Translations under genes and position numbers: made by a program | The notes under the pieces: model-generated | What the model saw: only the letters and a program-made list of their open reading frames with translations | The model's database searches: none | What the model was told of the DNA's origin: nothing | DNA from: an uncultured Schlesneria sp. | GTDB lineage: Bacteria; Planctomycetota; Planctomycetia; Planctomycetales; Planctomycetaceae | Direction: 5' to 3' | DNA: 38,792 bases | Assembly (NCBI GenBank): GCA_903911795.1 | Contig: CAIWEX010001204.1 | Coordinates: 1-38,792 of the forward strand | Part shown: piece after piece, positions 24,900 to 30,481 of the stretch | Numbering within the stretch: the stretch's first letter is position 1 | How the letters are laid out: every line of letters begins with the position of its first letter

Positions 24900-26837
24900 A
24901 TGTCAATCCGGCCTCGCAATTTGGCCAGTGGTCAGTCACGCCCAGTGTGGGTGCTGATCGTTTTGGTCATGACGAATTTGGCGTTCATCCAATCGGTTTT
25001 CACGCAACCGGTGATTGCGCAACAACCAGACATTGGGAATGGCGTCAAGCAACTTCTGCAGGATCGATGCATGGCTTGCCATGGCAACGATCTGCAGAGT
25101 GGCTCTGTCGACTTCGCAAAGATTTCAACCCAGGCGGTCGCCAAGGAAAATTATCCACTCTGGAAAAAGGTTGTCGCGCAAGTCTCGACCGGAAGTATGC
25201 CGCCAGAGACAGAAAAACCGTTAACCGCAGACGAAAAACAACGACTGCTGCAATGGGTGGGTGAGACATTTGATACCCGACAAAATCCTGATCCGGGGCC
25301 TCCGTTGACGCGGCAACTCACGCGGCATGAGTACGGACAGACGCTGCGGGATTTGCTCCGATTCTGGTTTGATCCGACGCACGAAGCGGGTATCCCCGAT
25401 GAAAGCGTTGTGGAAGGTTTCGCCAATCGAGCAGGCGGGCTTGTGCTGGAATCTTCCTTAATGGAGAAGTACTTCACGGCAGCCGATCTGGCTCTGGAAA
25501 AACTGTTCACTGACAACGGAGCTGCGGGAGCACGTAAGCGACTTTTATTCGTGACACCGTCGGAAACCGTTCCTGCCGCCAGTGCCGTTCGGCAAGTGGT
25601 GCAGTCTTTCTTGCGGCGCGCGTTTCGGAGGCCTGTGACCGATGACGAGGTCGAAAAATATTCCGTGATCGCAGATCGCGCTCTGGCAGCAGGCGAGGGC
25701 TTCGAGATTGCGATTCGTAAAACGTTGAAGCCCGCTCTGGTATCACCGCATTTTTTACTGCGAGTCGAATCTCAACCGGGTGAAGCAGCCTCCGTTCATC
25801 GCGTTAATGACCATGAGCTTGCCGTTCGCCTCTCCTATTTTTTGTGGAGTTCGATGCCAGACGATGCATTGTTCGAAGCGGCTGATCGCGGTGATTTATC
25901 CGAACCCGATCTACTGGAGCAACAGGTCCGGCGAATGCTGGCTCACGGAAAGGCCGATGCACTGACGTCGCAATTTCTGACTCACTGGCTACAACTGCCT
26001 CACCTGAGAAAGGCTTTGCCGTCGCAGAACCAGTTTCCTACCTTCACGCGCAGCCTGCGTGACGCGATGGAACGCGAGACATGGTTGTTCTGCGATCATA
26101 TGCGAAAGGAAGACCGCAGCGTCCTGGAATTGCTGGATGCGGACTACACGTTTGTGAACGCGGAACTGGCGCGTCATTACCAACTGGCCGAAGTCCCTCC
26201 GAAGGACAAAGATTTTCAGAAAGTCCAATTGAAGCCTGAAGATCACCGCGGGGGAGTGATCGGAATGAGCAGCATCCTGACGATGACGTCGCATACCGAT
26301 CGCACCAAACCAACGGCTCGTGGAAAATGGATGCTCGAAGTGCTGCTTGGTGAACCTCCGCCACCTCCCCCTGCCAATGCGGGCAGCTTCGCTCCCCCCG
26401 AAAAAGATCGTCCCGAGCCGAAATCGTTTCGCGAAAAACTGGCACAACATGCGACAAACGCCAACTGCATTGGTTGCCATAAGCGTGTTGATCCGTTCGG
26501 ATTCGCCCTGGAAAACTACGATGCCATCGGGAGTTGGCGCGATGGATCGAGCGGGGCGACGATTGACAACGTCGGTCAACTGCCTGGTTTTGGGGAGTTT
26601 CGCGGAGTCGAGGGTCTGCGAAGGGTGCTACGGTCGAAGCAATCACAGATTGTCTCAAACCTGGCCGCTCAAACACTGTCATACGCTCTTGGTCGCGATG
26701 TGAGTTATTACGACGAACCGTCGATCGCAGCGATTACCCGAGCGTTGGAACGCGATGAATACCGGTTTTCAACGCTGATTGTACAGGTCGTCAACAGCCA
26801 CCCGTTCTTACATCGCCGGGCAACGACCACGCCCTGA
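24900..26837 (+). CDS. DUF1592/DUF1588/DUF1585 domain-containing cytochrome-type protein (short form)
   Basis: CMACHGND and CIGCHKRVDPFGFALENYDAIGSW; LTRHEYGQTLRDLLRF; LSYFLWSSMPDDALFEAADRGDL; GVIGMSSILTMTSHTDRTKPTARGKWMLEVLLGEPPPPPPANAG. ATG at 24900 lies 7 nt after the transporter stop. Confidence 0.94.
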   Translation: MSIRPRNLASGQSRPVWVLIVLVMTNLAFIQSVFTQPVIAQQPDIGNGVKQLLQDRCMACHGNDLQSGSVDFAKISTQAVAKENYPLWKKVVAQVSTGSMPPETEKPLTADEKQRLLQWVGETFDTRQNPDPGPPLTRQLTRHEYGQTLRDLLRFWFDPTHEAGIPDESVVEGFANRAGGLVLESSLMEKYFTAADLALEKLFTDNGAAGARKRLLFVTPSETVPAASAVRQVVQSFLRRAFRRPVTDDEVEKYSVIADRALAAGEGFEIAIRKTLKPALVSPHFLLRVESQPGEAASVHRVNDHELAVRLSYFLWSSMPDDALFEAADRGDLSEPDLLEQQVRRMLAHGKADALTSQFLTHWLQLPHLRKALPSQNQFPTFTRSLRDAMERETWLFCDHMRKEDRSVLELLDADYTFVNAELARHYQLAEVPPKDKDFQKVQLKPEDHRGGVIGMSSILTMTSHTDRTKPTARGKWMLEVLLGEPPPPPPANAGSFAPPEKDRPEPKSFREKLAQHATNANCIGCHKRVDPFGFALENYDAIGSWRDGSSGATIDNVGQLPGFGEFRGVEGLRRVLRSKQSQIVSNLAAQTLSYALGRDVSYYDEPSIAAITRALERDEYRFSTLIVQVVNSHPFLHRRATTTP

Positions 26838-26973: not shown

Positions 26974-27513
26974 TCAGTTGATCTCGGTTCGGCTCACGAT
27001 GACGAGCCTTGCGTCTTCGATCTGCCTGGCGAATTCTTCCGCATCCGAAACTACGGCGTCATTCAGGATCGCGAGCGGATAACTGTCGGACGCTTTGTCC
27101 AGAATGACGAGTGTCGTGCCGTGTGCTGCTAATGCGGTTGCGATACTTTGCATGAAATCATTGATCGGAATTTCCGGGTCTGTTTCCGCCAGCAGATTCC
27201 AGTCAATCTCAAGTTCGCTGCATGGCTTCAGTTCCTGAAGGCCGTCGACAATATCCTGGTATTCCTCGCGCCAATCTGCCTCAAACAAATAGTGATGCAG
27301 ATGCCCGATGTCGATCACAATTTCCCACAACCTGGGATTGTCTCCCCACACTTTCTTCTGCCAATCGAGATCCACATTCAAGGCATCTTCGTTTGCCCGA
27401 TAGAATTCCTCCCAATTTTCAACGGCAGCCCGAAGATCAAGAATCGCGGCTGAATCATTGCAAAACAAAAGGTCCGCGAAGGATTTCAGGTTGTCTTTGG
27501 CCGTCATTATCAC
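26974..27513 (-). CDS. Acidic hypothetical protein, possibly immunity-like (tentative DUF6630 resemblance)
   Basis: 179 aa, acidic, Trp-rich: DLDWQKKVWGDNPRLWEIVIDIGHLHHYLFEADWREEYQDIVDGLQELKPCSELEIDWNLLAETDPE. Confidence 0.7.
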   Translation of the reverse strand: MIMTAKDNLKSFADLLFCNDSAAILDLRAAVENWEEFYRANEDALNVDLDWQKKVWGDNPRLWEIVIDIGHLHHYLFEADWREEYQDIVDGLQELKPCSELEIDWNLLAETDPEIPINDFMQSIATALAAHGTTLVILDKASDSYPLAILNDAVVSDAEEFARQIEDARLVIVSRTEIN

Positions 27514-27587
27514 TCCCCAGGAATTGAGGCAACATTTGCTGAAATGGAATCACTGACGCGCTGGATCAAATGAAGGACATTGGATTG

Positions 27588-28622
27588 TCAAAACTCCTGA
27601 ACGATGTAATCCGTTTCTGGCAAGCGGCGCGGATCGGTCGGGCCAGCGGCCTGGAACTGTTCTTCCCATTCAATTCGTAAATCCGGCAGGTTCTTTCTCC
27701 GGACGGTTTCCATCGATTCGGCAATCCATGGGTCGTAGCCCGACTTGGGGCATGGATATGGCATTTGTGCCAATGGAGATCGCAACATCGGGTGATCTGG
27801 ATTTGGAACGGACAACCCACGATCACACCGTATTCTTTGAATCAACAATACTTCCGTGGGAAGTTCCCTATGAATACCCGCTTTCAAACCGACAATCGAC
27901 GATTCTTCGTCCGTTTCTCGATTTAAGGCCGCTCGGACGTGCATCTCACAGAGTTTCAGCACGGCATTCTCCAAATGCTCTGGATGATCCCATTCATCAA
28001 AGATATCTTGATAAAGGGGCAGCAGCGTAACGCCGCGCGCCGCAAGATCAACAGGGATATCGCACCACATTCCATAAAGCTTCAGGAGGAACGGCGCAAC
28101 AGGCCCCGGTGAGTAGGCCTCCGGAGTGACGTACCATGGCGCATTTAAGAAATGTCCAAGGCATTTCCGGCCAAGCCAGTCTGCCGCTTGATCTTCTCCC
28201 AGGACGGCACTTAGCGCCATCGTCATCAGACATTCCGCAGCCCAAAAGTCGGTAATGAGACCGATTCTCGGCTGTCCACGTGGCTTCTCTGGATACTCTC
28301 GCAGCAATTGCTCCAGTCGCTCGATATACAAGTAGAATCCATATGCGTCGTATCGCCAAATGACATGCAGTCTGTGCCACACATCGTCCGTGACGTTCCC
28401 ACGCGCAAGAAGGTCATTCAATTCGCATTGGCGTTCAACTCCGATGCTACCAGCGATCAGACTTCCCTGGCCCTGAGGTGAACGACGACCGACATCGCTC
28501 TTAAAATATTCAATTTGAGGACTCAATCGGAATACATCGCGCAACGCTTTCCGAGAGTCGTTTACGACACTTTCAAACGACCATCCTGCAGTGCGTTTTT
28601 GCTTCGCCATATTGATAACCAC
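27588..28622 (-). CDS. Hypothetical protein of unknown family
   Basis: 344 aa ORF. Its C-terminal about 95 aa are clearly related to the downstream fragment at 28791-29138. Confidence 0.82.
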   Translation of the reverse strand: MVINMAKQKRTAGWSFESVVNDSRKALRDVFRLSPQIEYFKSDVGRRSPQGQGSLIAGSIGVERQCELNDLLARGNVTDDVWHRLHVIWRYDAYGFYLYIERLEQLLREYPEKPRGQPRIGLITDFWAAECLMTMALSAVLGEDQAADWLGRKCLGHFLNAPWYVTPEAYSPGPVAPFLLKLYGMWCDIPVDLAARGVTLLPLYQDIFDEWDHPEHLENAVLKLCEMHVRAALNRETDEESSIVGLKAGIHRELPTEVLLIQRIRCDRGLSVPNPDHPMLRSPLAQMPYPCPKSGYDPWIAESMETVRRKNLPDLRIEWEEQFQAAGPTDPRRLPETDYIVQEF

Positions 28623-28790
28623 GTCTTAATTATTTCAATCACCGTGCCCGCATGGTGTAGTCCGATTCCGGCGAACGCCGCGGATCGGACGATTGACGAT
28701 GACGATGTAACGCGTCATCCATTGTACGAGAAGATACCGAATTCCCTCCCCGAATCTCCACTCACATCAAAGCGACGTTACTTAACTTCT

Positions 28791-29138
28791 TCAGCTTTTG
28801 ATGGGGAAATCGGTGTCCGGCAAACGATGGGGGTCTGTGGTGCCGAATTTCTGGAATTCGTCTTCCCACTCCATCCGTAAATCGGGCATGTCCTTGCTGA
28901 TCTTAGCCAGTGACTCAGCCAGCCACGGATCATAGCCCGATTTCGGGCACGGAAACGGCATTCGTACCAACGGGGATCGGAGCAACGGATGTTCAGGATC
29001 GGGAACGGACAGGCCTAAATCGTGCCGGATTTTTCGGATGAACAAAATCTCTGAGGGAAAACTACTATGAAGCCCGGATTGCAACCCGAAGATCATGTCA
29101 AGTCGTAGTTCACAGCCTTTCTCGCGTGCAACCTCACG
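28791..29138 (-). pseudogene. N-terminally truncated, diverged copy of the 27588-28622 gene
   Basis: GLSVPDPEHPLLRSPLVRMPFPCPKSGYDPWLAESLAKISKDMPDLRMEWEDEFQKFGTTDPHRLPDTDF aligns with GLSVPNPDHPMLRSPLAQMPYPCPKSGYDPWIAESMETVRRKNLPDLRIEWEEQFQAAGPTDPRRLPETDY. The open frame ends at an upstream TGA near 29138. Confidence 0.75.
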
Positions 29139-29392
29139 TCAGTTCGGGCTGTGATGCGATGCCGGAAACTGTCAACCGATAGTCGTCTGACTCGCTGGGG
29201 AGGATTACGACCATTCAGCGTATATCCCAGTCCTCAAGATCATGCTCCAAGCACTGACAGGCAAATATGTTCCGTTCGACTGCAAGATTCCTCTTTCCGT
29301 GGTTGACGAGTTGAGCTAAAAGTTCGGGCTGGGACAAGGATCGTCCATCCGTGCGGTCGTTGCGCGGACCAAATACATCCAGGGAGGGCACT

Positions 29393-30481
29393 GTGACGCA
29401 TACTGTCGGTTCGCTGGCTTCACTCGTACAAGGAGAGGTTCGCGGGGATTCAGATCGAGTGATCTGTAATGCTGCGGCCATCGAATCTGCCGGCCCTGAT
29501 GCCGTGACGTTCGTTCTCGACGAAAGCCACGTGAGTCGACTGCAAAGTTGCCGGGCCGGTGCTGTCATATTGAATGCGAAGATCGCTGCGGGACTGGCGT
29601 CCGTGCCAAATACGTCACTGATCATCGTCAGTGACCCTCACGCAGCCTTTCAACAGATTCTGCCGCAGTTTCGCAAGATTCGCGGTCGGCCTACCCGCGG
29701 GATTTCGCCTCACGCCCACATCAGTCCGACTGCCATAGTTGGCGAAAACTGCTATGTCGGTCCGGGGGCCTGCATCGGCGATGAAGCCGAAATCGGGCCT
29801 GGCTGCGACATCTATCCCGGTGTGGTCATCGGTGCGGGCTGCAAACTTGGACAGGATGTCATCGTGCATCCGAATGCCGTGCTGTACGAGGATATTTCGC
29901 TGGGTGATCGAGTCATCATTCATAGTGGTGCGGTGATTGGGGCGGATGGATTCGGATATCGCTTTGCGGAAGGGCGATTCATCAAGATTCCGCAACTGGG
30001 GACCGTCGAGATCCACGAAGACGCCGAAATTGGTGCGTGTGCGACAATTGATCGCGGTGCCATTGGTCCAACAATTGTGGGTGCCGGCACCAAGCTCGAC
30101 AACCTGGTCATGATTGCTCACAACTGCGAACTGGGAAAACACAACGTTTTTGCCTCGCAAGTCGGTCTGGCTGGTTCCTGCACGACGGGCGACTATGTGC
30201 GACTTGGTGGCCAGGTCGGCATCCGAGATCACGTTCGCTTGAATTCTGGATGTATGGTGGGAGCCAAGGGAGGGGTCCACAAGGACATTCCTGAAGGCGA
30301 AATCTGGATCGGTTATCCCGCAACGCCGGAAGCCGAACAAAAACGGCTGGTATTCTCATTGAAGCGAGTTCCCGAAATGCGGGATCAGGTTCGGACCATG
30401 TCCAACCAGATCGCCACATTGATGAAGCAGGTCGAAGAACTCCGTGGTCAGTCCCCCGAAGAATTGCGGAAAGCAGGCTGA
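29393..30481 (+). CDS. lpxD: UDP-3-O-(3-hydroxyacyl)glucosamine N-acyltransferase
   Basis: Left-handed beta-helix hexapeptide repeats; GVVIGAGCKLGQDVIVHPNAVLYEDISLGDRVIIHSGAVIGADGFGYRFAEGRFIKIPQLGTVEIHEDAEIGACATIDRGAIGPTIVGAGTKLDNLVMIAHNCELG. GTG start with AGGGAGGG SD. Confidence 0.96.
   Translation: MTHTVGSLASLVQGEVRGDSDRVICNAAAIESAGPDAVTFVLDESHVSRLQSCRAGAVILNAKIAAGLASVPNTSLIIVSDPHAAFQQILPQFRKIRGRPTRGISPHAHISPTAIVGENCYVGPGACIGDEAEIGPGCDIYPGVVIGAGCKLGQDVIVHPNAVLYEDISLGDRVIIHSGAVIGADGFGYRFAEGRFIKIPQLGTVEIHEDAEIGACATIDRGAIGPTIVGAGTKLDNLVMIAHNCELGKHNVFASQVGLAGSCTTGDYVRLGGQVGIRDHVRLNSGCMVGAKGGVHKDIPEGEIWIGYPATPEAEQKRLVFSLKRVPEMRDQVRTMSNQIATLMKQVEELRGQSPEELRKAG

Follow-up and report, generated by a model that had tools for sequence, protein, structure and literature searches.

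A probable orphan immunity gene and its decayed partial copies in a planctomycete genome

This locus raises the question of what an intact gene of no recognised family does beside pieces of itself, in a stretch of DNA in which no toxin can be seen. The stretch analysed (the window) is the whole of contig C1204 (38.8 kb), part of an 8.39-Mb planctomycete draft genome (G000; 1338 contigs, about 92% complete). We consider the 344-aa gene to be, most probably, an orphan polymorphic-toxin immunity gene, and its two partial copies the remains of a tandem immunity array. Immunity genes of polymorphic toxins lie just downstream of their toxin and usually act by cytoplasmic binding (PMC3482391), and orphan immunity arrays arise when toxin genes are displaced and the antidotes stay (PMC5361080).

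Gene anatomy, paralogy and decay

As described in the first-pass annotation, the minus strand carries open reading frames of 101, 344 and 179 aa; a DUF1592-type cytochrome gene flanks them on one side and lpxD-lpxI on the other. The intact gene (27588..28622, minus strand) starts with GTG, a likelier start being the ATG at 28610, which would give a protein of 340 aa. The earlier remark that its product belongs to no recognised family was borne out: no credible match was obtained with the Pfam, NCBIfam or PADLOC models searched, and nine members of the family gave zero Pfam matches even at E 10 (hmmscan). Structure prediction, which had been suggested as a check, returned an all-helical, moderately confident AlphaFold model (pLDDT 74, pTM 0.79) and nothing significant in a Foldseek search of the PDB.

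The 101-aa frame (28791..29096, minus strand) is the 3' piece of a second copy, with its frame still open and its 5' part missing. It aligns to residues 243-342 of the 344-aa protein alone and similarity is lost abruptly before residue 243, in agreement with the 95-100 terminal residues first estimated; no credible match to Pfam or NCBIfam was found for the piece itself. The match is not due to chance (tblastn E 3e-46). Identity amounts to 59.6% at the amino acid level and, close to the two-thirds judged by eye, to 67.7% at the nucleotide level over 99 codons, with 74, 85 and 44% at codon positions 1, 2 and 3, respectively. Substitution rates were estimated at dN 0.26 and dS 1.83 by NG86, the latter near saturation, and at dN 0.29 and dS 1.0 by YN00, which places omega between about 0.14 (NG86, dS near saturation) and 0.3 (YN00). 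Taken together, these values indicate that the intact copy and the fragment separated long ago and have since evolved mainly under constraint on the protein; the copy had been thought either old or under selection.

The gap between these copies contains a third relic (28647..28691, minus strand), an extreme 3' end of about 14-27 codons. There, tblastn with the intact protein recovered the last 14 residues (about 28648-28689), and the relic 'SDPRRSPESDYTMRAR' has its stop at the same position as the intact end 'TDPRRLPETDYIVQEF'. The relic is 76% identical to the end of the intact gene over 45 nt, ungapped, and belongs to an ungapped DNA repeat family (D2) with three members, at 27596-27640, 28647-28691 (76%) and 28796-28840 (60%). 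Among 2000 dinucleotide shuffles, none scored as high in a comparison with the last 105 aa; with the entire protein as target, 1 in 1000 did. Thus, the repeat set, the tblastn match and the shuffle test together show that the locus formerly held at least three copies of the 3' end of the 344-aa gene, and three 3' ends of the family lie within 1.5 kb. Other repeats in the window (D4, D5 and inverted repeats) are two-copy matches at chance level. Nothing related to the 344-aa gene was found upstream of 29096, and the end first given to the island (29340) overshoots.

The array is interior to the contig, with flanks of 26.9 kb and 9.7 kb. Its left neighbour encodes a DUF1592/1588/1585 planctomycete cytochrome protein (24987..26837, plus strand; Pfam), and on the right lpxD (29351..30481, plus strand; PF04613) forms a conserved boundary: its best matches are 62-85% identical, it is present in 14 of 14 congeners, and lpxI adjoins it in 7 of 7 checked. 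Synteny with close relatives had also been proposed as a check. In the seven congeners checked, the array and the DUF1592 gene were both absent from the region upstream of lpxD, which puts the array on the variable side of this boundary, and profile searches detected the 344-aa family in 0 of 14 other species of the genus.

The 179-aa protein (26974..27513, minus strand) had been called acidic and immunity-like. It is indeed acidic (pI 4.2), but none of the neighbourhoods examined shows an immunity role and the family is a known one, DUF6630 (PF20335, E 2.5e-21, 77.1 bits against a cut-off of 27). In three other genomes (G052, G027, G029) DUF6630 proteins are found among ordinary genes, without HINT toxins, and two of the three are fused to an N-terminal part of no assigned family. 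The gene is best regarded as a neighbour of the array, for which an immunity role is possible.

Toxin linkage in other genera

In the window itself, six-frame HMM searches with the HINT domain and the toxin tips described below returned nothing, consistent with the initial impression that no toxin is visible. Matches to RHS/HINT regular expressions were chance-level YDxxG pieces. No secretion genes were found near the array. A contact-dependent (CdiBA/CdiI) locus, as first considered, was rejected: the window has no CdiA- or CdiB-sized frame (longest, 916 aa), and its largest frame encodes a DUF1592-type cytochrome protein (Pfam). An anti-phage system was likewise rejected, there being no PADLOC match. 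The genome as a whole gave no toxin match; a single PT-HINT protein was found (contig C411, L011, 3-1520; 505 aa), which ends shortly after HINT and has no toxin tip.

Profile searches found the 344-aa family in 11 genomes, spread thinly across the sampled Planctomycetota. In a check for mobile or plasmid-borne copies, plasmids gave no credible match, nor did viral contigs in a search that reached close relatives only, and contig scans with two single-protein queries had the G046 record itself as their sole match. Examination of the homolog neighbourhoods, recommended in the first-pass annotation, revealed toxin linkage in G046 and G538, which represent two further genera of this taxonomic family; in both, the homolog begins where the toxin gene ends and the toxin C-terminus consists of PT-HINT/intein-like remains followed by a putative PD-(D/E)xK-type nuclease domain. 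In G046, a toxin frame with a PT-HINT domain (PF07591, E 5e-21) carries GHGLD-x(15)-VEVK at its C-terminus, and the homolog (298 aa) begins where this frame ends. The G538 homolog (333 aa) overlaps the end of its toxin frame by 10 nt; this frame contains the intein C-terminal motif TIGR01443 (22.2 bits against a cut-off of 15.6), and its tip carries GHGID-x(12)-AEVK and matches weakly to Mrr_cat (E 0.003) and UPF0102/YraN, both PD-(D/E)xK families. Both tips share NxSGHG[IL]D...EVK. A low-confidence tip model (pLDDT 56) has the element order alpha-beta-beta-beta-alpha-beta and, too poor to use, gave no match in the PDB. On these sequences the tips are candidate PD-(D/E)xK-type domains with a predicted nuclease activity. 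The window protein is only about 20-25% identical to the two toxin-linked homologs.

In G046 the homolog lies within four tandem PT-HINT cassettes (contig C122, L004, 1-10930) with different nuclease tips and different immunity-like partners: a 270-aa protein of no assigned family, SUKH-1 (with a WHH nuclease), the 344-aa homolog with DUF7691, and an ankyrin-repeat protein. WHH nuclease and SUKH-1 immunity form one of the pairs catalogued in Zhang et al. 2012 (PMC3482391). DUF7691 directly follows the homolog in two genera (G046, L004:8192-8710; G495, L022:172-735) and may supply the cassette with a second immunity gene; the G495 pair lies on a contig of 3.3 kb in which no toxin was recognised.

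A recognisable HINT/REase toxin lies within 4 kb of the homolog at 2 of the 10 loci examined outside the window and at none of the other eight, several of which are on short contigs or at contig ends, while G532 (contig C76) and G219 have long flanks. The earlier proposal of an orphan immunity array gains strong support from the two homologs behind HINT-nuclease toxins, together with the empty toxin searches of the window, and none from most homologs, which lack an adjacent toxin. A toxin-tip profile search of 170 genomes of the same taxonomic family returned only the G046 and G538 loci; the profile was built from these two tips, and the result shows only that close copies are rare. Two HINT adjacencies by chance are very unlikely, since the loci belong to different genera and HINT domains are infrequent (a single one was found in G000). 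At one locus (G555, contig C267, L024, 7927-9467) a cadherin-like/RHS-repeat protein lies about 2.7 kb from a truncated homolog, and the contig ends before its C-terminus.

The orphan-immunity reading and its rivals

Members of an immunity family for polymorphic toxins are expected immediately after a toxin gene whose C-terminal tip can be released, which is the arrangement of the G046 and G538 homologs and not of the window copy; an orphan immunity array consists of tandem paralogs without an adjacent toxin, which is the arrangement in the window. The function of the family is suggested by the toxin-linked homologs in the two other genera. Its members would bind a PD-(D/E)xK-type nuclease tip in the cytoplasm and block it, after release of the tip by the HINT (intein-like) pretoxin domain, and the 344-aa protein would protect its cell in this way. 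The toxin gene would have been lost from the window genome or never acquired, and the intact antidote would be retained, presumably under present-day selection, since the toxin may still arrive from neighbouring cells. Recombination or displacement of older copies would have left the 3' pieces behind.

Among the alternatives, the one that survives best, although we think it doubtful, is that the 344-aa proteins have diverged from within Imm49 or PoNi (DUF1910/DUF1911), in which case nothing would be new at the family level; on function it is compatible with the orphan-immunity reading. All-alpha Imm49 and Imm-PA2201 are paired with restriction-endonuclease-fold toxins (PMC3482391), the same toxin class and the same all-alpha nature as are predicted here. 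Imm49 (PF15575) in particular pairs with Tox-REase-1/-6 and occurs in planctomycetes. In a single hhalign comparison (E 0.005) the C-terminal FPxEILAVxRVRxxxGL of the family stands in register with LDALALxRLARxRGL of Imm49, a suggestive correspondence that came with a probability of only 6.8%. PoNi resembles the proposed antidote in being encoded next to the PD-(D/E)xK DNase toxin PoNe that it counters (PMC6688995). Against both stand the empty Pfam searches with nine members and the Foldseek result: PA2201 (2FEF) was absent from the 50 best matches listed, and hmmscan found neither PoNi_C (PF08929) nor DUF1910. PoNi_C was also not found in 59 relatives, in a search that lacked a functioning positive control and whose empty result carries no weight. 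We therefore claim membership of neither family. As a side observation, planctomycete Imm49 proteins (G266, contig C27, L065; G160, contig C195, L066) follow a small protein of 190-193 aa, and the former is also preceded by an HNH-like frame and PAAR-like/DUF2169-like genes; the sequence context suggests T6SS-type toxin cassettes.

It is unlikely that the 344-aa gene belongs to a broader all-alpha cellular family of which the toxin-linked members were recruited, the window copy having another function. No toxin lies near most homologs, and distant homologs of about 273 aa in two genera (G219, L008; G150, L009) have a neighbourhood in common, the next gene being kinase-like, which possibly indicates a non-toxin role there. 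However, the patchy distribution described above, the tandem decaying copies and the fast divergence are unlike those of a housekeeping gene.

A toxin that is present but was missed in an incomplete draft is a quite unlikely explanation. The assembly is fragmented, as given above, but the array lies mid-contig with long flanks lacking HINT or toxin homology, the genome holds no toxin match, and its sole PT-HINT protein stops soon after HINT. A cognate toxin elsewhere in the genome, or one of divergent type, is possible.

Finally, a joint function of the 344-aa and DUF6630 genes as a two-gene operon instead of a spare-antidote array is highly improbable. The two genes do share a strand, with DUF6630 second after a gap of 74 nt and no clear promoter between, but in G052, G027 and G029 DUF6630 is found apart from the 344-aa family, and DUF7691, not DUF6630, follows the homolog in both genera with a small partner (G046, G495), which also argues against the fixed two-gene unit first envisaged.

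Relation to known immunity systems

The orphan-immunity reading leaves the question of novelty. The 344-aa immunity family appears to be uncatalogued, though this type of locus is known. Tentatively, and with nearly as much to be said for as against it, the family could be a new immunity family, largely restricted to planctomycetes, whose members counter HINT-released PD-(D/E)xK nuclease toxins of a clade not described so far. If so, Planctomycetota would possess a nuclease-toxin competition system, complete with a separate lineage of antidotes and with orphan arrays, in a phylum in which toxin-immunity competition is little documented (a brief literature search found no paper). The two toxin-linked relatives are ready for cloning and testing, and the locus supplies an annotation for genes currently labelled hypothetical. 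It is also a visible record of immunity genes piling up and decaying, a principle that is already known.

A close parallel is provided by the immunity genes of HINT-pretoxin polymorphic toxins (PMC3482391). Like these, the 344-aa homologs lie directly downstream of PT-HINT proteins with nuclease tips and in tandem cassette arrays, and are patchy, fast-evolving and duplicated; unlike these, the family had no counterpart among the Pfam, NCBIfam and PADLOC models searched, and its copy in the window stands without a toxin. Toxin-less sets of tandem and incomplete immunity paralogs are on record for Staphylococcus and Vibrio cholerae (PMC5361080, PMC9484751), and recombination among tandem immunity paralogs leads to losses and mosaics (PMC9484751). 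Although the V. cholerae T6SS and S. aureus esaG orphan arrays involve other families and secretion systems, and the window has three copies of which two are decayed, they share with the locus described here the tandem paralogs, the partial copies and the displaced or absent toxin (PMC5361080, PMC9484751).
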